Positions 14,462 to 47,143 of a stretch of 47,143 nt of DNA are shown piece by piece (the first letter of the stretch is position 1; every line of letters begins with the position of its first letter). The notes beneath the pieces were generated by a model. That model had not been told where the DNA came from and ran no database searches. It saw only the letters and a list, made by a program, of their open reading frames with translations. This stretch comes from a virus. The DNA is taken from the IMG/VR virus record IMGVR_UViG_3300021378_001197, positions 1 to 47,143 of that record; one strand, 5' to 3'. Position numbers and translations under genes: made by a program.

Positions 14462-15283
14462 ATGAAATATACTGATTTACAAATCAAACAAAAAATAGAT
14501 GAACTATGGGGCGGTGGCGGAGTACCAGACTACACCACAATGCCTGCATACAAATTAAAGAAGGCATCAAAGAACGGCAAAAAGTTTTTTGTGCCAAGCA
14601 ATGAACCAACTCCTAAAGGTGTAGAAGCAGTAGAAGGTAAATCCCCTCATAAAAAAGGTAGCAAGAAATATAAAAAACATATGGCGGCAATGCACGCCGA
14701 GAGTGGTATGAAAGAAGAAATGTCAAATCGTTTTGCATTGTATGTTGACGGTAAAGATTCACAAGTAAGAATGAGTGACGAAGATAAAGCACAGGAGTTG
14801 GCAGACCAAATGAACAAAGACAACAAGAAGGTAGAAGTTAAAAAAGTTGGAGTTAATGAAGAAGAGTTTGGTGGAAGATTTATTACACAAGACTTTAACG
14901 ATATTTTAAGAGACCCAATGCTAAAACTACCTAAGAATATAAACTATAACAATTTCTTAAACTTTATGGAATATGCTATGTCAGATTCACAATACAAAGG
15001 TTTGACTTTAGAACAGTTCGGTGATAAACTAAAAATGATATTCAGTCAATGGAAAGCAAATTCAGTACACGGAGTAGACAAACGTAATAAAAAAGGTAGT
15101 ATACCTAATCCTATTAAACCAACAGCATATAAAACACCAGAAGGCAAAGTTCCTTCAGATGCTGACAAATGGTTTATGATAGAATCAGAAGCAAAAGAAA
15201 AATTAAGCACATACCCAAGTAAGTATCAAAATACTTGGGCATTAAAAAAATATAAAGATGCCGGTGGCACTTGGAGTAAATAA
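14462..15283 (+). CDS. Basic protein with C-terminal SYxxxW/GGxW motif
   Basis: 273 residues, Lys-rich in the first 90 residues (HKKGSKKYKKHMAAMH). The C-terminal block TYPSKYQNTWALKKYKDAGG resembles the WPSAYASGALVQCRKKGAKN block of the 15908 protein, here without Cys. Such motifs recur in late, head-associated small proteins of T4-like marine phages, so a virion or packaging role is an inference. It opens a nine-gene plus-strand operon with stop-start overlaps. Confidence 0.7.
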   Translation: MKYTDLQIKQKIDELWGGGGVPDYTTMPAYKLKKASKNGKKFFVPSNEPTPKGVEAVEGKSPHKKGSKKYKKHMAAMHAESGMKEEMSNRFALYVDGKDSQVRMSDEDKAQELADQMNKDNKKVEVKKVGVNEEEFGGRFITQDFNDILRDPMLKLPKNINYNNFLNFMEYAMSDSQYKGLTLEQFGDKLKMIFSQWKANSVHGVDKRNKKGSIPNPIKPTAYKTPEGKVPSDADKWFMIESEAKEKLSTYPSKYQNTWALKKYKDAGGTWSK

Positions 15284-15540
15284 TGAATTGGTTGATTATA
15301 TTATCACTTAAGGCTATACTATCTAGTATTATAGGCAGTAGTTTTTATCAGTGGTTTAAAAACACCAAAGTAGGTGTATGGTTCCAAGTAAAAATGGATA
15401 ACACAATGGAATGGGTAGCAAACAGATATGATTTAGAAATTGCTACTAGAGAAGAAAAATGGTTATCTCAATATCCACACCTTGCAGACAGAATAGTTAC
15501 ATTAGAAAAAGAAGTAGCAAAACTTAAAAAGAAAAAATAG
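15283..15540 (+). CDS. Small membrane-anchored protein
   Basis: 85 residues. An N-terminal membrane segment (residues ~2-22) is followed by a soluble helical domain and a C-terminal coiled-coil-like run ending in Lys. Start ATG 15283 overlaps the preceding TAA by one base (TAATG). Short anchored proteins here may serve lysis or membrane takeover; nothing more specific can be read. Confidence 0.7.
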   Translation: MNWLIILSLKAILSSIIGSSFYQWFKNTKVGVWFQVKMDNTMEWVANRYDLEIATREEKWLSQYPHLADRIVTLEKEVAKLKKKK

Positions 15541-15549
15541 GAGAACATT

Positions 15550-15705
15550 ATGGATTGGATTAAAGCAAGAATAAAAGAAAGAACAAGTTGGGACGGAGCA
15601 GTCCTAATAGGCGGTGGTATAGCAATGCTACTAGTACCAACAACTTTAATTGGTTGGGGTATGATAGCCTACGGTGGTTGGACAATCTGGAAGAAAGAAG
15701 ACTAA
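15550..15705 (+). CDS. Small membrane protein, 51 aa, holin-like
   Basis: ATG 15550 to TAA 15705 encodes MDWIKARIKERTSWDGAVLI followed by two hydrophobic stretches joined by a short turn and a charged KKED end. GGAG stands 6 nt before the ATG. The layout (basic helix, two membrane passes) suits a holin or other small membrane effector, but this is inference. Its stop overlaps the next start (TAATG). Confidence 0.75.
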   Translation: MDWIKARIKERTSWDGAVLIGGGIAMLLVPTTLIGWGMIAYGGWTIWKKED

Positions 15706-15908
15706 TGCTCATTGAGGAAGTTGTACAAGAGAATGCTAAGGGTGGAATGAAAAAATGGTTCAACCAGATGTCACCTTTATCCAAAGCAACTTCCGAAAGT
15801 AAACCAAAAGGAAAGCCTGGCAGAAAGCCTAAGGCAGAAGTAGTTGATACTTCAGAGGACACTAAGTCAAAACAAAGAGTTAAAGCAATGGCTAAGAAGG
15901 CAAAGTAA
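15705..15908 (+). CDS. Small basic protein, Lys/Ala tail
   Basis: 67 residues from ATG 15705, which overlaps the preceding TAA. A longer reading from an upstream TTG is rejected because it would overlap the membrane gene entirely. It begins MLIEEVVQENAKGGMKKWF, then SKPKGKPGRKPKAE, an AT-hook-like GRKPK segment, and a basic end. Possibly DNA-binding or packaged with DNA; this is inference from composition. Confidence 0.65.
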   Translation: MLIEEVVQENAKGGMKKWFNQMSPLSKATSESKPKGKPGRKPKAEVVDTSEDTKSKQRVKAMAKKAK

Positions 15909-16414
15909 TGAGACTACAAGAGATCATACTTACAGAAGACCTAAGAGCCTGGTTTGGTAAAGGCAAGAAAGGCGGAGCCGGTGGTGGCGGTTGGGATAGA
16001 TACAACACCAAAGGCGAACGTATTGGCAAGTGTGGAGATGCTAAGAAAGGTGAAGGTAAGCCTAAGTGTTTAAGCAAATCAAAAGCCGCAAGTCTAAGAT
16101 CCTCAGGTGGTAAGAAGGCTATTGCTACAGCCGTAAATAGAAAACGTAGAAAGGATCCTAATAAGGATAGAAAGGGTAAGGCTAAGAATGTTAAGAACGA
16201 AAGTTTTACTAATATTCCATTTAGCCAATGTCCTAGTTGCGGTGGCGAGATTCATTATATGGATGAAGCCAAAAAGAAAACAAAAAAGGATGCTTGTTAT
16301 CACAAAGTGAAAGCAAGATATGATGTTTGGCCAAGTGCTTATGCCAGTGGTGCATTGGTACAATGCAGAAAGAAAGGTGCTAAGAATTGGGGCAACTCAA
16401 AGAAGAAGAGTTAA
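15908..16414 (+). CDS. Cys/Lys-rich phage protein (DUF6321-like + Cys motif)
   Basis: 168 residues. DLRAWFGKGKKGG, then GGGGWDRYNTKGERIGKCGD and GEGKPKCLS match the DUF6321-type module. A Zn-ribbon CPSCGGEIHYMDEA follows, and the C-terminus is DACYHKVKARYDVWPSAYAS, ALVQCRKKGAKNWG. Paired Cys and Lys density suggest a zinc-bound nucleic-acid or capsid-lining protein. TAATG overlap with the gene before. The family assignment is from memory of motif shape. Confidence 0.72.
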   Translation: MRLQEIILTEDLRAWFGKGKKGGAGGGGWDRYNTKGERIGKCGDAKKGEGKPKCLSKSKAASLRSSGGKKAIATAVNRKRRKDPNKDRKGKAKNVKNESFTNIPFSQCPSCGGEIHYMDEAKKKTKKDACYHKVKARYDVWPSAYASGALVQCRKKGAKNWGNSKKKS

Positions 16415-16416
16415 TT

Positions 16417-17730
16417 ATGAGATATAAAGAAATTAAAGAAGGTTCATTAGACGGATATTATCTTTATAAAGATGCTGAAGAACTTTGGCTTAAAGACAAT
16501 CCAGGTAAGTCTAGTAGAGATTTTGAAAGAGTAGGTGTAGCAGTACAAGATGAATACACTGAAAAAGCAGGAGGCATCAAAGGTTCATACAGAGGCAAAG
16601 GTGTTAGCAACTGGACTAGAAAGCCTAAAGAATCTACTAATCCATCACTAGAAGCATTAGTAAAACATATTAAAGAAGGTGTTCCATTATGCGATAGCAT
16701 ATTTAGACATCACAGTGAATCATATCTTGATACATTTAAACACGCAAAGCAATTAAAAGAACAAGGCGTACTGCCAGAACTAGATTGGGAAAGTGAAGAA
16801 ATGCTTACACTCGATATAGGTGAAAGTGCAACACTGATGAACGGAGAGACTGTTTGGTTAGATGTTCCTTATATGATAGAAGCAGAAGCACCAAACATTT
16901 CAGATAATATGATAGGAGTACCAGATAACTTTTATGATGAAGAAGAAAGAAGAGAAGCACATAAAGATTATATGGAGTTTATAGATAGATATCCAGAAGA
17001 TGACTATGGTAGTATAGCAGATGGCTTTTGCCCTGAATGTGGTGGCAATGGTTATCAAGACGGCGATGAGTACGACGACGATGGAGAAGAGAATACAGAG
17101 TGCGACGGTACTTACACACACGGTTGTGATGAAGGCGAAATAGAAAATGCAAGTTGGGTAGACATTATCAAACACGATAAACGTAATGCACAAAGACAAC
17201 AAGCAAAAGATAATTATCCAGGTGACGAAGTAGTAATAAAACAAGTTGCCGCATATATGAAACAGATGGATGATCCAAGACAAGCATATCAACAGATGGC
17301 TATTGATTATCCCCATATGGGCAGAGCAGAAAGAAGTGGGTTACTAGCAAAAGCACAAAAGATTGCATTTCCTGAAGTAACAGAAATGAAAAGACTTGCA
17401 GGAATAAATGAAAGCAATCCCAAAATACCAGAAGCAGAATACCAAGGCAAGAAAGTAGAACTCAGCAAACCTAAAAGAGGTGGCAGTAAGAAGTTTTATG
17501 TGTACGTTAAAGATCCTAAAACTAAGAACATTAAGAAAGTTAGTTTTGGTGCTGACAGTGGCGGTGGTAAACTTGCTGTTAAATTAAAAGATCCAAAGGC
17601 TCGTAAAGCATTTGCAGATAGACACAACTGTGACCAAAAGAAGGATAAAACCAAAGCAGGTTACTGGAGTTGTAGACTTCCAAGGTATGCTAAGAGTTTA
17701 GGTTTAAGTGGAGGAGGTACTTGGTGGTAA
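16417..17730 (+). CDS. Multi-domain protein with Zn finger and DUF5872-type C-terminus
   Basis: 437 residues from ATG 16417, preceded by AGAAGAAGAG; an upstream in-frame TTG overlapping the previous gene is rejected. N-terminal ~110 residues are charged and unknown. A CPECGGNGYQDGDE...ECDGTYTHGC segment is a DnaJ-like CxxCxGxG zinc site. EMKRLAGINES is a short tag seen elsewhere in this window. The C-terminal ~95 residues (KVELSKPKRGGSKKFYVYVK, FADRHNCDQKK, YWSCRLPRYAKSLGL) fit DUF5872 of phage structural proteins. Likely a virion or assembly protein. Confidence 0.75.
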   Translation: MRYKEIKEGSLDGYYLYKDAEELWLKDNPGKSSRDFERVGVAVQDEYTEKAGGIKGSYRGKGVSNWTRKPKESTNPSLEALVKHIKEGVPLCDSIFRHHSESYLDTFKHAKQLKEQGVLPELDWESEEMLTLDIGESATLMNGETVWLDVPYMIEAEAPNISDNMIGVPDNFYDEEERREAHKDYMEFIDRYPEDDYGSIADGFCPECGGNGYQDGDEYDDDGEENTECDGTYTHGCDEGEIENASWVDIIKHDKRNAQRQQAKDNYPGDEVVIKQVAAYMKQMDDPRQAYQQMAIDYPHMGRAERSGLLAKAQKIAFPEVTEMKRLAGINESNPKIPEAEYQGKKVELSKPKRGGSKKFYVYVKDPKTKNIKKVSFGADSGGGKLAVKLKDPKARKAFADRHNCDQKKDKTKAGYWSCRLPRYAKSLGLSGGGTWW

Positions 17731-17745
17731 GCCAAACATTTTATT

Positions 17746-18045
17746 ATGAAATTACAAGCAAAAACACAAACGGAATACAAAGACAATTATATAACAGAAG
17801 ATGTATTTGTAAGAACTATCTCCAAAGATGTAACAACATCTAACGAGTATACTTGGCACAGAGATTCTAATGATAGGTCAGTTGAAGTAGTCGAAAGCAA
17901 TGGCTGGAAGTTACAATTTGACAATGAACTACCCAGACTGCTTTGTGAAGGTGACTTAATTTATATCAAGAAGAAACATTTCCATAGAATAATTAAAGGC
18001 GAAGGCGACTTAGTAGTTAAGATTACTGAAAACGACACGTTCTAA
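17746..18045 (+). CDS. Small cupin-fold protein
   Basis: 99 residues. EYTWHRDSNDRSVEVVESNG and CEGDLIYIKKKHFHRIIKGE give the two cupin motifs with His residues in the metal-ligand positions; the whole protein is about one cupin barrel. Substrate unknown. Together with the oxygenase at 22032 and the cupin domain at 386 it is the third double-stranded beta-helix protein of the window. Its stop overlaps the next start (TAATG). Confidence 0.7.
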   Translation: MKLQAKTQTEYKDNYITEDVFVRTISKDVTTSNEYTWHRDSNDRSVEVVESNGWKLQFDNELPRLLCEGDLIYIKKKHFHRIIKGEGDLVVKITENDTF

Positions 18046-19508: not shown

Positions 19509-22013
19509 TTAACTTACGCCGCTAGGATCTTCGTCTTCTATATCTAATTCTAATTTGTAGTTCGCATCATCTATAGCAGGAACTTCTAAACTGTTTTCTA
19601 AGTAATGTTTAGCACTACTCATATATGTACCTGCTTTAGTAACTTTTGCTTGCCACCAATTAGGGAAGTCTGAATCTGGTAAGTCCCCTAGCATTTTAAA
19701 TAATTCTACACAATACTTGCCTGTTTGGTAAAGTTGCCTTCTAATCATATCACGTTCATTGTCAACGTGACCTATTGCAACTTTCTTCATTGTACCCATA
19801 TCGTGTACTGGATCAATCTCTACATCGTCTTCCATTACAACACTTTCATTTATCTTGCTGTTAAAGTCTAAAACCTTAGTCTTCTTTGGTTCTGCTTCTG
19901 CTGGTTGACCTGGAAGTAGTTCCATAAATCTTTTTGCTGAATTAGGTTCTGCTACAACATCACTTAATGCTTTTACTAATGCTGAACCTTCTTGTCTTTC
20001 TGCTGGTGCAAGTTTAGTAAAGTCTCCTGCAACCATTTTCTCTAGAGCATTTAGTGCCATACTAATATTATTAATACCTACTTTGTCTCTAATTCTTGAT
20101 ATATCTCCTGTGCCAACTTCTGCTTCTGAAGTTAAACCTGCTAGTTCTTTTATTCTATCTAACTCTTCATTTGCGTGGTCGTGTCCTGGACAAGTACAAT
20201 CTTTTTCCATTCTACCACAATCTGGACATCTGTTATTTTCTCGAGCCTTATTAATAGGAGCCATATGTCTTAAATATCTATCCATTGGTGCTTCTTCGGC
20301 TTCATCGATGTCTCTTACATCTTCTCTTGCACCTTCTAAACCTTTTTGTTGCACCATTGTGATGTAATCTTGAATCACTTCGTTTGCATACTTCTCATCC
20401 ATACCTTCTGGATTTGTAAACATCAATGCACCTAAATCTTCTACACATTGCTCTTCGCTTTCGCAATTATTAATTACACCTACGCAATCTGTCATAGCAA
20501 TATCAAAAGCATTGCCGCCTTCTTGCACATATTGTTCTAATGTATATTCTTCGTCCTCACCGTCAAGTTTAAACTTTGTGCCTTTTGGCATACCTTTTGC
20601 TTTTAGATCCTGTACTTTTTTAGCAAATTTGTTCTGTTCTGCAACTTCGCCTTCTTCAACTTCGTCACCTACGCCGTGTCCCTTGTGGAACCAAGATTCT
20701 AATTCAGCCTGTATATCTTGTTCTTCTGTTTCAAAGTATGTGAAGTCATCTGCTACTTCTTTGGTTTCACCTTCTGGAGATGTAATTGATAGTTTGTGAA
20801 CTGTGTAACCGTTTCTCTCACCATTATATTCTAATGTATAAGAGTACTCGCCTTCATCTTGAGGACCATCTGGATCTATAAATGGTTCATTACTTGTATG
20901 GTGATAACCATCTGGATTGTTTGCTTCTTCAAGTTCACCTTCGAACTTTGCAACTACACCTTTACTGTGTACTAAATCTTTTAATTCCCCAAACCCTACT
21001 GTTGATTGTAACTTAGCAAGGAACTTTTCTTTTGGTTGAGGTTTCTGTATAATATGTAATAGACTTCTTAATGCCATTGCTTCTGGAACTGAAACTTTAA
21101 TGTCATCGCCATCGTCTGTTTTAATATGTTGTACTGGTTTGTACTTGTCTGCATCAACTACGTCTTTGATTGATTCGCTATCAATAATTTTTCCTAATTG
21201 GTCATACACACTTTTCTCTTTAAATCCAGGTCCAAACTCTGCATCGTCTGATGGCAAAGAGCCTGTATCTACTGTGTATTCATCTTCATTTATTCCTGCG
21301 AGTTGGCGCATTCTTTTTAAATCTATTTGTTCCATTTGTTCTTCCTTTGCTAATTTGGTTCTAATTAAATTAAAAACCTCTTCATTGTATTTATCATATA
21401 AATCAACAAATGCCTGCTTTGCTGTATCGACATCGCCGCCTAATATGTTCCTTATTTCACTTGCACTCTTAACACTAAAGCCTGCTACGTTAAATGGTTT
21501 AGTATCTAAAGTTATAACGTATGCCCTTCTACTTGCTTTATCGCCCACTGGTCTTATATCTTTTTCTTCTGCAGGTAATCTCTGTAATGCTTTCTCTTTG
21601 CCTTTTGCCGTCATAGCCAATCCTGTTGTGGGAAATTGGAATCTAGCATCAGGTCCGTCCATATCCTTTTGACTGACTGCCAAGTACAATGAATTAGTGT
21701 CTTCATCTATATCTAAAGCATTTATATACTCTTCTATGTTGTATGGACTAGTCTTAACTTCCATAATAGCATCTGCAGGAATGCCTGCAAGTATCATCAT
21801 TTGTTTCTTTTCTTCAAATGTAAACGGCGAATCCGTATCATTTGTTTTGTCTGATGTTGCTATAACTACTTTGGAATTAGGATATTGGCTCTTTAGTGAT
21901 TCATAAATGGACTTGTGTCCTTTATGGAATGGATGAAACCTACCAGGAAATACTACCACAGGCTCAATAGAGTCTGCTTCGAATAATGCTAATATGTTAA
22001 AATTGTAATCCAT
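19509..22013 (-). CDS. Large fusion: HxGH nucleotidyltransferase + Zn-ribbon + structural-type tail
   Basis: 834 residues. Residues ~18-200 are a nucleotidyltransferase with VVFPGRFHPFHKGHKS (HxGH), of the NMN/pantetheine-phosphate adenylyltransferase type. After it come two copies of the short tag RMRQLAGINE / RIKELAGL, a CPDCGRMEKDCTCPGHDH zinc-ribbon, and a long acidic, largely disordered region. The architecture looks like an enzyme attached to a virion or scaffold component. ATG 22013 has no Shine-Dalgarno; an ATAAATA motif ends 6 nt before it. Confidence 0.72.
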   Translation of the reverse strand: MDYNFNILALFEADSIEPVVVFPGRFHPFHKGHKSIYESLKSQYPNSKVVIATSDKTNDTDSPFTFEEKKQMMILAGIPADAIMEVKTSPYNIEEYINALDIDEDTNSLYLAVSQKDMDGPDARFQFPTTGLAMTAKGKEKALQRLPAEEKDIRPVGDKASRRAYVITLDTKPFNVAGFSVKSASEIRNILGGDVDTAKQAFVDLYDKYNEEVFNLIRTKLAKEEQMEQIDLKRMRQLAGINEDEYTVDTGSLPSDDAEFGPGFKEKSVYDQLGKIIDSESIKDVVDADKYKPVQHIKTDDGDDIKVSVPEAMALRSLLHIIQKPQPKEKFLAKLQSTVGFGELKDLVHSKGVVAKFEGELEEANNPDGYHHTSNEPFIDPDGPQDEGEYSYTLEYNGERNGYTVHKLSITSPEGETKEVADDFTYFETEEQDIQAELESWFHKGHGVGDEVEEGEVAEQNKFAKKVQDLKAKGMPKGTKFKLDGEDEEYTLEQYVQEGGNAFDIAMTDCVGVINNCESEEQCVEDLGALMFTNPEGMDEKYANEVIQDYITMVQQKGLEGAREDVRDIDEAEEAPMDRYLRHMAPINKARENNRCPDCGRMEKDCTCPGHDHANEELDRIKELAGLTSEAEVGTGDISRIRDKVGINNISMALNALEKMVAGDFTKLAPAERQEGSALVKALSDVVAEPNSAKRFMELLPGQPAEAEPKKTKVLDFNSKINESVVMEDDVEIDPVHDMGTMKKVAIGHVDNERDMIRRQLYQTGKYCVELFKMLGDLPDSDFPNWWQAKVTKAGTYMSSAKHYLENSLEVPAIDDANYKLELDIEDEDPSGVS

Positions 22014-38103: not shown

Positions 38104-38331
38104 TTACTGACTGTCGACTAATGCTTTAAATTCTGTGAACCCGCCAATCTTGTCGCCATCTACAATAATTTGTGGGAATGTTCTTGCTGTTGGGAATGTT
38201 TCGAACAACTGTTCTCTTGTGAAATCTTCATCTAACATTTTGTATGTTAGTTCATATCCTTTTGACTCTGCTAGTGCTTTTGCTTGAATGCAGTATGGAC
38301 ATTGTGGTTTGCTGTATATTTCTACTATCAT
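38104..38331 (-). CDS. Glutaredoxin
   Basis: 75 residues, thioredoxin fold. CPYC redox site in YSKPQCPYCIQAKALAES, cis-Pro TFPQIIVDG, and GGFTEFKALV for glutathione binding. It recycles NrdA. Directly upstream of nrdA (9-nt gap), downstream of an unknown gene. Similar to T4 NrdC in role. Confidence 0.95.
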   Translation of the reverse strand: MIVEIYSKPQCPYCIQAKALAESKGYELTYKMLDEDFTREQLFETFPTARTFPQIIVDGDKIGGFTEFKALVDSQ

Positions 38332-43511: not shown

Positions 43512-43689
43512 CCTTTAGTTTAACTAATTTCACAATATCTCTTTGACGCATTTGGTCTAATAGATAATGTTCCCTTTCTGCCAATCCTTTTTTTGCGATT
43601 GGACCGAATTCTTCTAATCTCTCAAATAACTGAGACTCTTGACTGTTTAAAAATGTTGTATAGCCTTTACTGTTAGTTATACTTCTCAT
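43465..43689 (-). CDS. Small protein, 74 aa
   Basis: MRSITNSKGYTTFLNSQESQ, LFERLEEFGPIAKKGLAERE, a helical protein with a mixed-charge second half. The ATG lies 4 nt inside the stop of the 43686 gene (43686-43689). No family recognised. Confidence 0.6.
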   Translation of the reverse strand: MRSITNSKGYTTFLNSQESQLFERLEEFGPIAKKGLAEREHYLLDQMRQRDIVKLVKLKDGTNAYKHVKQKNYI

Positions 43690-43892
43690 TTGTCGTAGAT
43701 GCCTTTTCCTATTGCACCTTTAATTGATGTATGCTTACTTTTCTTCTTTGAAGGCTTTCTTTTAATTATGTTTCCGCTGTTCATATTGTGCGCCACACTG
43801 GCTACTGCACCTGCACTAGTGGCTCCTGCACTAGCACTTTCTTCTATATTATAGTACATTTCAAATACTTTGTCAATGTCTTTTGCCTTCAT
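43686..43892 (-). CDS. Small protein, 68 aa
   Basis: MKAKDIDKVFEMYYNIEESA, an Ala/Gly/Ser linker, then KRKPSKKKSKHTSIKGAIGK, basic. Possibly a DNA- or membrane-associated peptide. ATG 43892 is 5 nt after ATAAATA and lacks a Shine-Dalgarno. Confidence 0.6.
   Translation of the reverse strand: MKAKDIDKVFEMYYNIEESASAGATSAGAVASVAHNMNSGNIIKRKPSKKKSKHTSIKGAIGKGIYDK
43848..43876 (-). promoter_or_regulatory. Possible internal sigma-70 promoter
   Basis: Inside the 43686 gene the minus strand reads TTGACA (43876..43871), 17-nt spacer, TATAAT (43853..43848). The match is perfect but it codes IDKVFEMYYN, so it may be chance. If real it would serve the 43465 and 43071 genes. Confidence 0.35.
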
Positions 43893-43909: not shown

Positions 43910-46021
43910 TTAGTGTAGACGGTCTACAAGTTTTGCAATATCTTTAACCTGTTTTACATAGTCTTCTGTTTCATCTGACAGTAAAAAGTAAACATATCTA
44001 AACAAGTCTTCTGGAGCAAAAATAAATTTTGTTGCTAATGCTTTGTCAAGTTGTTGATTTACTTGTCGTTTTATTAAGTCTCCCATTTCCAATGTCTGTA
44101 ACTGTTTAATAGAGTCGTCTATTGCTATAAGTAATTCTTCTGATTGTTTATAAGATTCTATAGTAGATATTACGTCACCTTTACTTGTTGTTTCTTTTAA
44201 CTTTCTAAAAAACTCATTAGTAGTTTCAACTCTAACAGGAAGTTTTTCTGCATAGGAATTAAATACTGCAAGAAAAGTTTTTATTACATCTATACTTTCA
44301 TCTATAGATTCGTATGCTTTGTCTGGTAATAACTTTAGTAAGTATGTTGACCTCATTATTGCTTTGATTTCGTGGTCACGTTTGTCTTTTGCATCAGGAA
44401 ACTCTGGGTAAAGTTCATCACCTGTTAATTTGTTTAGTTTGATGTCTACACCTTTTTGTTGGTCAAAAGCCACAACTCTGTTAGGGTAACGTTTAATCAA
44501 ACTACTCCACATTCTCTGTGCAGATGGTGTTTGAGTATAGTCTGAATATAACGGCACATTCTTCCAGGCACTAAAGGCAATGTACAGTTTCAATGCTCTG
44601 CCTTGTCCTTGTATACTAGGATCTAATGCTGTTGTTAAAACTTTGTAGCCGTCCTCATAATTTTCCAATGTTAAGTATCCTAAAATTTCTTTGTTATACT
44701 GAGGACTTTTTGGATCTTTGTTTGTTGGTCTTCCCAAAAAGAAATCCTTAACTTTCTGCATAAATGTCTCTTTGGGTATAGTACCAATCATTACGTTCTT
44801 TACATAAAAAATAAACAGTTTACCATCTTTGTACCATACTTCTGTAGGACTTTGTATAGTAGGTATAGGGCCTAAACTTGTACCTGCGGCATAGGATTTC
44901 TCAGGATCGTAATCATATTTAGGTGTTGTGTCTGTTGAAGCAATACGATACGCATTTGAAGGAACTCCTTTAAAACTATCAGCATCTTTTTTATATGGTG
45001 CTTCAACCAAAGTATTCAGTTTGTTCTTCCACTGTTGCTCTTTGCTTTCTGTTTGTTTTGTATCTTGTAGTCCAGGGTGGTCATTTAATTCTTCTACTGA
45101 AAAGTTAGATACTTTTAATACTGTAACTGCATCTACTTTTAATCTTTTTGCGGCTTCTAATCTATGATGTCCATTAATAATTCTGTTGTCTTTGTCTATA
45201 ATAATAGGCTTATCTTTATACTGTGGATCTTTGTTGCCATAAAAGTCGTTCATTACTTTTAAAACTAAATCTGGTTTTAAATCTTTAGGATCCTGGGATG
45301 GTACAATATCATCTCTACTAAAATTATCTAATCTTTGATATTTTATACGATGCTTAATTAAATCAGGCTCTTTGACTTGTACCATATTCTTTCTTTCTAT
45401 TCTTTTACTAAAAATTTTATCAAAAGCATTTTGGTCATACATTTCTTTTGCAATATCTTCTTCTAATGATTCTGATAACCTTATCACACCACAAGCAACT
45501 CTGTCACCTGCATTGCCTGTTTTTAAACTTTCGTCATCTCCACCATTGCCTAAGTCGTCTTCATCTTGATGTAAAACAAATGCTCTGCCAACTACACTAT
45601 ACTCGCCTACTAGGTCTATCCTAGGAGCAACTATTTTAAATTTTGCAATGCCGTCTTGGTCTGCAACCACATTACCTAAATCTCCTATATGTCCTGATTT
45701 AATATCACCGTGGTCAACACCGTGTGGGTTGTAATGCCCTCCTGCACTTTCGCAACCTTTACTGAGGTCACCAAATTCGTGTATGTGAAATCCGTGTTTG
45801 CCTGGAGTTAGTCCTTTAAAGATACCTTTAATAATTGTTTCTTCATCGGGTTTTTGTGTTACTGTAGCATAGCCTGTAAAGCCGTCTATTGACTTATGTT
45901 CAAATTCGCATACTGCTTTAACAGTTTCTTGTGCTTCTGTAATAGCATTTACTTTGTCGCATTGGCACTTTAACTCTTTTGTCCTAGGACACTTATCGAC
46001 TACTATGCTTTTAAGTCTCAA
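43910..46021 (-). CDS. Cu/Zn superoxide dismutase + ParB-like + GNAT fusion, TTG start
   Basis: 703 residues. Residues ~33-182 are a full Cu/Zn-SOD: His79 and His81 (GFHIH), His96, His104, His111, Asp114, His151, with Cys90 and Cys177 as the expected disulfide. Residues ~215-310 are ParB/Srx-like (IIDKDNRIINGHHRLEAAKR). Residues ~395-515 are GNAT-like (DPSIQGQGRALKLYIAF, SAQRMWSSLIKRYP). The C-terminal ~190 residues are helical. Start TTG 46021 is fixed by AGGAG at the right spacing; no upstream ATG exists. Probably a virion-associated multi-enzyme; each domain's activity is predicted only. Confidence 0.85.
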   Translation of the reverse strand: MRLKSIVVDKCPRTKELKCQCDKVNAITEAQETVKAVCEFEHKSIDGFTGYATVTQKPDEETIIKGIFKGLTPGKHGFHIHEFGDLSKGCESAGGHYNPHGVDHGDIKSGHIGDLGNVVADQDGIAKFKIVAPRIDLVGEYSVVGRAFVLHQDEDDLGNGGDDESLKTGNAGDRVACGVIRLSESLEEDIAKEMYDQNAFDKIFSKRIERKNMVQVKEPDLIKHRIKYQRLDNFSRDDIVPSQDPKDLKPDLVLKVMNDFYGNKDPQYKDKPIIIDKDNRIINGHHRLEAAKRLKVDAVTVLKVSNFSVEELNDHPGLQDTKQTESKEQQWKNKLNTLVEAPYKKDADSFKGVPSNAYRIASTDTTPKYDYDPEKSYAAGTSLGPIPTIQSPTEVWYKDGKLFIFYVKNVMIGTIPKETFMQKVKDFFLGRPTNKDPKSPQYNKEILGYLTLENYEDGYKVLTTALDPSIQGQGRALKLYIAFSAWKNVPLYSDYTQTPSAQRMWSSLIKRYPNRVVAFDQQKGVDIKLNKLTGDELYPEFPDAKDKRDHEIKAIMRSTYLLKLLPDKAYESIDESIDVIKTFLAVFNSYAEKLPVRVETTNEFFRKLKETTSKGDVISTIESYKQSEELLIAIDDSIKQLQTLEMGDLIKRQVNQQLDKALATKFIFAPEDLFRYVYFLLSDETEDYVKQVKDIAKLVDRLH

Positions 46022-46022
46022 C

Positions 46023-47143
46023 TTAAACTCCTAGGTTAATTTTTGTTAGTTGTTCTTTTGGCATTCTGCTTTTTGCAAAATGTCTTACAATTTCTCTAGC
46101 ATCACTCTTTGCTCCATACCTTGCGTGTAAGTCTTTAAATGCGTCTAACATTTCAGGAACTGGTAATGCCACAAAGGCTTTCATTTGTAATTTATAATTG
46201 TTTACTGGAAATTCTACAGACAATATATCATTTATATCTTTTACTCTATCTACTTCAGTCATCATTAATGATTCACTAATTGCGTTTGCTTTGATTGTTA
46301 ATTTTAATTTGTTTGCTAACTCTTCGTTTGCTTTCTTCTTGCCACCTTTCATATTTGCACACCATTGATACATTTTGCCTTTCTCACCACTATACTTTTT
46401 AGCCTTTGCTTTCAAATCAGTAACTGAACCTTTACAACTGGCTCCTGCTTTCTTTACTCTGCCTGGTTTGCTTTTACCTTTCTTTTTACCGTCAGCGAAA
46501 TTTTCGTCCATTTGATCTGGGTCTATAGGCTCGTATCCTGTAGCACTATGACTGAATAATAAATCTCCTGGGTCTTCATACCCTTCAAAATCTACAGGAT
46601 TATATTCAGCATCAGTGAGGTACCAATAGTCTTCCTTAAAGTGTTGGCTGTCACCATCAGTGTTTTGACGTATAACATACACTTGATTGTCGTTACCTAT
46701 TATCTCAATATCTGTATCTACAGCGGCACCGTTTAACCATTCTTCGTATGCTTTTTGACTTCTCTGTGGCGAGAACAAAGGCTTCACTGATTGTGTATTC
46801 AATCCTACAACATTTTCGTTCTTTACACAATTAGGAACTGTTTTACCAAACATCTTTTTGGTGCCTTTCTTCTTGTATCCTTTCCAGCAACGTGTTCCTT
46901 CTAATACTTTGGATTCGCTTACAATACGCAACTGCTCTTCTAAAGGCAGTTTATCAAATTTAGCAAACACACTTTCATTACCTTGTCTACGAGTAACTGC
47001 TAATGCATCTTGAAAACTTGCAAAAGGACCGTTTTCCATATCACCTCGATTTATTAAAGTTCCTAACACCTGCGATTTGAAAACAGCATCATTGCTTGGA
47101 TTGTTTAAAAATCCTACTAGGTCATTTACAGAACCTCTTGCCA
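46023..47143 (-). CDS. Cys/Lys-rich phage protein, N-terminus cut by window edge
   Basis: The frame stays open to the right edge, reading ARGSVNDLVGFLNNPSND directly into TLINRGDMENGPFASF, so the true start is likely outside or at the edge (the codon straddling the edge ends in TG). ATG 47039 has GAGGTGAT too close to be a proper ribosome site. Motifs: CWKGYKKKGTKKMFGKTVPN (seen in marine myovirus late proteins), a basic RVKKAGASCKGSVTDLKAKA Cys-Lys region, and a helical C-terminus. Probably a structural or DNA-associated protein. Confidence 0.65.
   Translation of the reverse strand, partial: ARGSVNDLVGFLNNPSNDAVFKSQVLGTLINRGDMENGPFASFQDALAVTRRQGNESVFAKFDKLPLEEQLRIVSESKVLEGTRCWKGYKKKGTKKMFGKTVPNCVKNENVVGLNTQSVKPLFSPQRSQKAYEEWLNGAAVDTDIEIIGNDNQVYVIRQNTDGDSQHFKEDYWYLTDAEYNPVDFEGYEDPGDLLFSHSATGYEPIDPDQMDENFADGKKKGKSKPGRVKKAGASCKGSVTDLKAKAKKYSGEKGKMYQWCANMKGGKKKANEELANKLKLTIKANAISESLMMTEVDRVKDINDILSVEFPVNNYKLQMKAFVALPVPEMLDAFKDLHARYGAKSDAREIVRHFAKSRMPKEQLTKINLGV

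Follow-up and report, generated by a model that had tools for sequence, protein, structure and literature searches.

Eukaryotic-like bacterial Cu/Zn-superoxide dismutases (SODs) of 'Group 2', which carry an N-terminal CxRTxAxxCxC motif, were published in 2021 as proteobacterial and discussed as enzymes from which eukaryotic SOD1 may have come (PMC8382915). Their CXC was proposed to bind copper or to aid disulfide formation, and one recombinant member, RbCuZnSOD ('Rickettsiales bacterium TMED131'), is active, also as a monomer (PMC8382915). The prohead protease of phage T4, gp21, cleaves behind L/I-x-E and takes off capsid-targeting propeptides within the prohead; for internal protein III, its first 10 residues are enough to target it to the capsid, and T4 ejects its internal proteins into the host cell (PMC9026906). 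Here we analyze a gene of the IMG/VR virus record IMGVR_UViG_3300021378_001197 (the window, 47,143 bases in full) in which an SOD is joined to a ParB-like and a GNAT-like region within one 703-aa protein. Its cysteine leader and the phage head-protease-type sites between its parts suggest that the virus probably packs the SOD in its head; among the papers searched, none reported SOD-ParB fusions or a head-packaged SOD.

The window protein shares the Group 2 motif with one substitution (A to E) and, like these enzymes, has no signal peptide by eye, but in contrast to Group 2 as described in that publication it is phage-borne and has ParB-like and GNAT-like parts attached, along with protease-type sites. 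T4 internal proteins I–III and Alt likewise have a short N-terminal leader of M-K-x-x-x-hydrophobic type ending in L/I-x-E, whereas the window leader is longer, contains a cysteine module and is followed by several internal sites; the T4 proteins are carried in the head and ejected, which for the window protein is predicted from sequence alone, and family scans revealed no homology of its mature parts to the T4 internal proteins or Alt. The ejection proteins of phiKZ and SPN3US also go into the head and likewise combine a long propeptide with several protease sites, but these are different proteins, without SOD, from a different phage group (PMC5694885). Another phage-encoded Cu/Zn-SOD, the moron SodC of Gifsy-2, is about 34% identical and annotated as an SOD precursor. 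It is a lysogeny-type cargo rather than a virion cargo. By sequence, the closest solved SODs are animal and plant SOD1-type enzymes, and the CxC resembles that of the C-terminal domain of CCS (as described in PMC8382915); in contrast to the SOD1 and CCS pair, the window has one polypeptide and lacks both a separate CCS and an MxCxxC domain, and the residue corresponding to Gly150 is Arg181.

Anatomy of the fusion protein

The gene and its parts are as follows, with slashes marking predicted cuts:

43910..46021, minus strand: whole gene, SOD, ParB-like, GNAT-like and C-terminal regions, 703 aa
46028..46032, minus strand: AGGAG, likely Shine-Dalgarno sequence ahead of the TTG start
45935..46021, minus strand: leader, residues 1-29, MRLKSI... 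start plus cysteine module, predicted propeptide
45959..45991, minus strand: C-P-R-T-x4-C-x-C, residues 11-21 (C11, C19, C21)
45932..45943, minus strand: gp21-type site 1, ITE/A, P1 = E29
45470..45934, minus strand: predicted mature Cu/Zn-SOD, residues 30-184, all ligands intact (Pfam, alignment to solved SOD1, relatives and tree)
45467..45478, minus strand: gp21-type site 2, LSE/S, P1 = E184, at the end of the SOD
45002..45469, minus strand: ParB-like segment, residues 185-340, with NGHHR motif
44999..45010, minus strand: gp21-type site 3, LVE/A, P1 = E340
44297..45001, minus strand: region with GNAT-like motif A, residues 341-575
44294..44305, minus strand: gp21-type site 4, IDE/S, P1 = E575
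43913..44296, minus strand: C-terminal region, residues 576-703

A preliminary description of this DNA had proposed a single 703-aa protein with a TTG start, which is borne out by an open reading frame (ORF) with no internal stops, by the upstream AGGAG and by the same start in relatives: AGGAG and TTG are both present in L001, and TTG also in L004. The full architecture was found in four other IMG/VR metagenomes, in contigs L001 (85% identical), L004/L006 (75%), L007 and L008. Across the SOD segment (residues 49-190), the window and L001 differ by 18 synonymous and 2 amino-acid codon changes, indicating that the SOD is kept by purifying selection.

The SOD is a complete eukaryotic-type (E-class-like) Cu/Zn enzyme with predicted dismutase activity. 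It matches Pfam Sod_Cu (PF00080) over residues 49-180 (E = 6.6e-44), and its Cu/Zn ligands (H79, H81, H96, H104, H111, D114 and H151), disulfide cysteines (C90-C177) and active-site R174 all align with solved SOD1 and are invariant in 37 relatives. This agrees with the earlier claim of a complete SOD with its metal ligands and disulfide cysteines, and the ligand misalignment considered at that time was not seen at any position of the alignment. The earlier label SodC holds as far as SOD is concerned but not in the sense of an ordinary bacterial SodC, since this is an E-class-like 'Group 2' enzyme. At the human Gly150 position, which lies in the E-class dimer interface, the protein has Arg181 (CGVIRL), making a standard E-class dimer doubtful.

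The region at residues 185-340 is ParB/Srx-like, as first proposed: residues 271-308, around the NGHHR (a GxxR-type motif), match PHROG_620 'ParB-like partition protein' (E = 1.9e-8), and Pfam ParBc_2 appears below threshold, in relatives only (0.001-0.005). A ParB-like segment is present in about 30 SOD ORFs; it follows the SOD in the window and precedes it in L064/L066, two loci in which a long Gly-rich and poly-Lys linker stands before the SOD. In the SOD tree the eight ParB-fused rows group together (86/88), as would be expected if the fusion took place once and rearrangement came later. Of the acetyltransferase-like domain described earlier, motif A stands (QGQGRA at 471-476) but a profile match over the family cut-off does not: Pfam, NCBIfam and PDB profile searches gave no significant GNAT match in the window protein, and Pfam GNAT models in two relatives were sub-threshold (0.057-0.11, the best value being from a relative). 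The GNAT-like assignment is thus plausible at the level of motif A. The C-terminal region has no significant family match and is seen only in close relatives.

The cysteine leader and protease-type sites

A scan of IMG/VR with the SOD domain returned 188 relative-encoding stretches, from which 80 loci were kept, with proteins ranging from stand-alone SODs of about 190 aa to about 1,000 aa. The window motif, CPRTKELKCQC, occupies nearly invariant alignment columns, and just ahead of the SOD nearly all relatives have C-x-R-T-x4-C-x-C-x5-[ILV]-x-E/[ASTGD]. The search pattern, C-x-[RK]-T-x3..5-C-x-C with [ILV]-x-E-[ASTGD] no more than 16 residues further on, matched 59/62 distinct phage SOD ORFs and 0/75 of the nearest cellular SODs, those inspected starting by eye with signal-peptide-like leaders. 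Site 1 is present in all 59 at near-fixed spacing, starting five residues past the last cysteine in 57/59. One locus (L017) has a one-residue variant of the module, and the short stand-alone forms retain both leader and site at equal spacing. The preliminary description had mentioned neither this leader nor the cleavage sites, nor the large family to which the protein belongs.

The conserved CxC leader is a candidate answer to a worry raised in the preliminary description, that a cytosolic SOD needs copper loading; the literature links the motif to copper binding or disulfide formation. Within the head-packaging reading discussed below, a role for the module as a zinc knuckle or as a core-binding anchor for packaging, rather than in copper handling, appears possible but rather unlikely. 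Its position in a predicted propeptide is in keeping with such a role, as is its absence from L064/L066, where VYE/A is nevertheless kept ahead of the SOD. Against this, the module adjoins the SOD even where the SOD is internal and the protein has a separate targeting-like start (L016, L034 and L038), and within about 0.9 Mb around the SOD loci the cysteine pattern recurs in one further ORF only, on a contig that itself matches SOD.

The window protein has four [LIV]xE[ASG] sites in 703 aa, all at domain boundaries, and three of the four are conserved in four homologues with P2 varying (for example LVEA, LIEA, LLEA and LLEA at site 3, and IDES, IDES, ISES and ISES at site 4). Site 2 is incompletely conserved, reading LAES in two relatives and LADS in a third. 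In L064, with its different domain order, VYE-A stands at the place of site 3. Across 16 other architectures, 4/48 sites fall inside marked SOD, ParB or GNAT cores, and a strict [LI]xE[ASG] precedes the SOD in 19/23 non-redundant sequences as compared with 1.7 ± 1.2 in shuffles. These motif patterns were picked after viewing the sequences, so the counts describe the family rather than test a rule fixed beforehand. A processing site just past the SOD was rejected as a general rule, being present in 3/9 only.

Targeting-like starts (M-[KR]-x-x-[DEQ]-hydrophobic) were found in 17/22 SOD ORFs as compared with 12/204 background ORFs, several long forms starting MKINDLITE-S, MKIDDLITE-T or MRIKDFVNE-S. 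Same-strand neighbours have them in 95/651 cases versus 16/379 ORFs elsewhere, or 19/183 versus 13/302 by cluster; all of these counts include related sequences and are hence indicative.

Phage context and the SOD clade

Among the relatives, a 110-kb contig (G010) encodes Peptidase S77 (a gp21-type protease), gp23 and a T4 portal, and the YLAE/AAST in its gp23 is a comparable site. Synteny links the window to another 110-kb contig, G007, which has clamp-loader-like genes. The T4 tail tube proved uninformative as a marker. In a tblastn search of isolated phages, only distant SodC was found (5 records), leaving no isolate of this SOD family in that collection, and there was no match for the upstream neighbour and nothing significant for the C-terminal half.

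In a tree of 139 columns only, with bootstrap not settled, 27 phage rows form one clade (99/97) that is sister to the two included eukaryotic SODs (98/95). The SOD of a Rickettsiales metagenome-assembled genome (MAG; L105) nests within the phage clade, neighbours on the MAG contigs L103-L106 are up to 97% identical to those on IMG/VR phage contigs, and a T4-type portal and gp23 occur on other contigs in 2/3 MAG assemblies. As the copies in bacterial MAGs are nested in the clade and lie on phage-like contigs, the clade is probably of phage rather than proteobacterial origin. By its leader motif, it matches the published 'Group 2' bacterial CuZnSODs. A separate record labelled Acinetobacter phage MD-2021a (L189, CAKLQH020000003.1) has sodC surroundings that resemble a bacterial chromosome (ydiK, yccS, mdfA) and is likely mislabelled.

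Two genes flank the fusion:

46023..47069, minus strand: upstream neighbour; its basic RPGRVKKAGASCKGS...MYQWCANMK-type module is joined to SOD in other contigs
43686..43892, minus strand: downstream 68-aa protein, MKAKDIDKVFEMYYNIEE/SASAGATSAG, with a capsid-targeting-like start

The basic module (RPGRVK[KR]AGASCKGSVT...MY[HQ]WCANMK) is thus a neighbouring gene in the window and SOD-fused in other contigs. Relatives of the 68-aa protein (MKAKDIDKVFEMYYNIEE/SASAGATSAGAVASV; a 74-member cluster) lie near the SOD in many contigs, and its stretch resembles GATASGNVATL, past the LAE site of the G010 gp23. Elsewhere in the window, a second cluster with capsid-targeting-like starts spans 14462-18045 on the plus strand (MRLQEIILTE/D at 15908 and MRYKEIKE/G within 16387-17730), one of its proteins matching PHROG_727, and an 834-aa cytidyltransferase-like protein (19509-22013, minus strand) has a start, MDYNFNILALFE/ADS, that resembles a leader plus protease site. 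Host-like genes on the minus strand include one with a ClpX-type zinc-finger start (1622-2863, by eye), a ribosomal protein S21 (1183-1587, PHROG match) and a glutaredoxin-like protein (38104-38331, by eye) that adjoins ribonucleotide reductase.

Head packaging, rival explanations and meaning

On balance, we favour the view that a marine phage related to T4 packs this polyprotein into its head, cleaves it as the head matures and ejects the products along with its DNA. The short leader (MRLKSI..., like a T4 capsid-targeting sequence) would direct the polyprotein into the prohead core. The C-x2-T-x4-C-x-C leader might then help copper loading or formation of the SOD disulfide in cis, as CCS does for SOD1; such a helper would be needed by a phage SOD that is made in the cytoplasm and lacks a signal peptide. 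A gp21-type prohead protease would cleave at all four L/I-x-E sites, so that the leader is lost and the SOD (30-184), ParB-like (185-340) and GNAT-like (341-575) parts are released. These would enter the next host with the DNA, where the SOD would remove superoxide; alternatively, it may protect packaged DNA in sunlit water. While the anatomy, its conservation and the placement of the sites are observed directly and the phage origin of the clade is well supported, we infer targeting, cleavage, the copper role, delivery and benefit. The earlier suggestion of an enzyme cargo of the virion, a guess from the oddness of the combination, has gained new sequence support, from the conserved gp21-type site before the SOD, the sites at boundaries and the targeting-like N termini in relatives and neighbours.

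Several points weigh against head packaging. The window start, MRLKSIVVD, misses the [DEQ] of the targeting pattern and fits it loosely, and site 2 reads LAD in L007, which from T4 data is expected to remain uncut. The [LI]xE motif is short and common, the bounds of the ParB and GNAT domains are approximate, and because the sequences are related the shuffle and Fisher values are indicative only. Finally, no match to gp21, gp23 or the T4 portal was found in the window or in G007, which are both fragments, and the prohead protease of the window's subgroup was unseen in the fragments examined.

The rival that survives best is an ordinary auxiliary metabolic enzyme, made late and kept within the infected cell, with the SOD protecting the host cytoplasm, the fusion serving co-expression and LxE being a helix or linker feature. 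Many relatives are indeed stand-alone SODs only about 190 aa long, phage SOD genes carry the annotation moron (PHROG_1975) and RbCuZnSOD is active alone in the published work (PMC8382915). We regard this explanation as unlikely, however, as the short forms keep the leader and site at equal spacing, the sites avoid domain interiors and neighbouring genes also have targeting-like starts. A tail or baseplate structural protein decorated with SOD and ParB-like domains and acting at the cell surface would accord with the neighbouring genes, among them matches to 'virion structural protein' families and a protein of the Mtd-N receptor-binding type, but it is improbable: the scanned architectures contain no clear tail-protein domain (one weak PhageMin_Tail match, E = 0.009, in L016), and both gp21-type sites and targeting-like starts are characteristic of the head. 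An assembly or frameshift artefact fusing separate genes, which the preliminary description had named as a refutation and which the unusual domain combination might suggest, can be dismissed, because the domains are joined in independent contigs from four other metagenomes, with start and reading frame conserved across five contigs and purifying selection on the product.

A more specific version of head packaging, which we put forward tentatively and think may well not hold in full, is that these marine T4-related phages encode a self-maturing SOD1-type enzyme in a modular head polyprotein: the CxC leader would load copper in cis, the prohead protease would then remove the leader and split the SOD from the ParB-like and GNAT-like enzymes, all to be injected together, and the 'bacterial precursor' Group 2 of SOD1 would be this phage family. 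If true, phages carry an antioxidant enzyme in the virion, within a head polyprotein of enzymes, and Cu/Zn-SOD maturation can be built into the protein itself without CCS or a periplasm. Phage genes appear to encode the enzymes taken as possible proteobacterial forerunners of eukaryotic SOD1, making phages candidate parties in the history of SOD1, in either direction.
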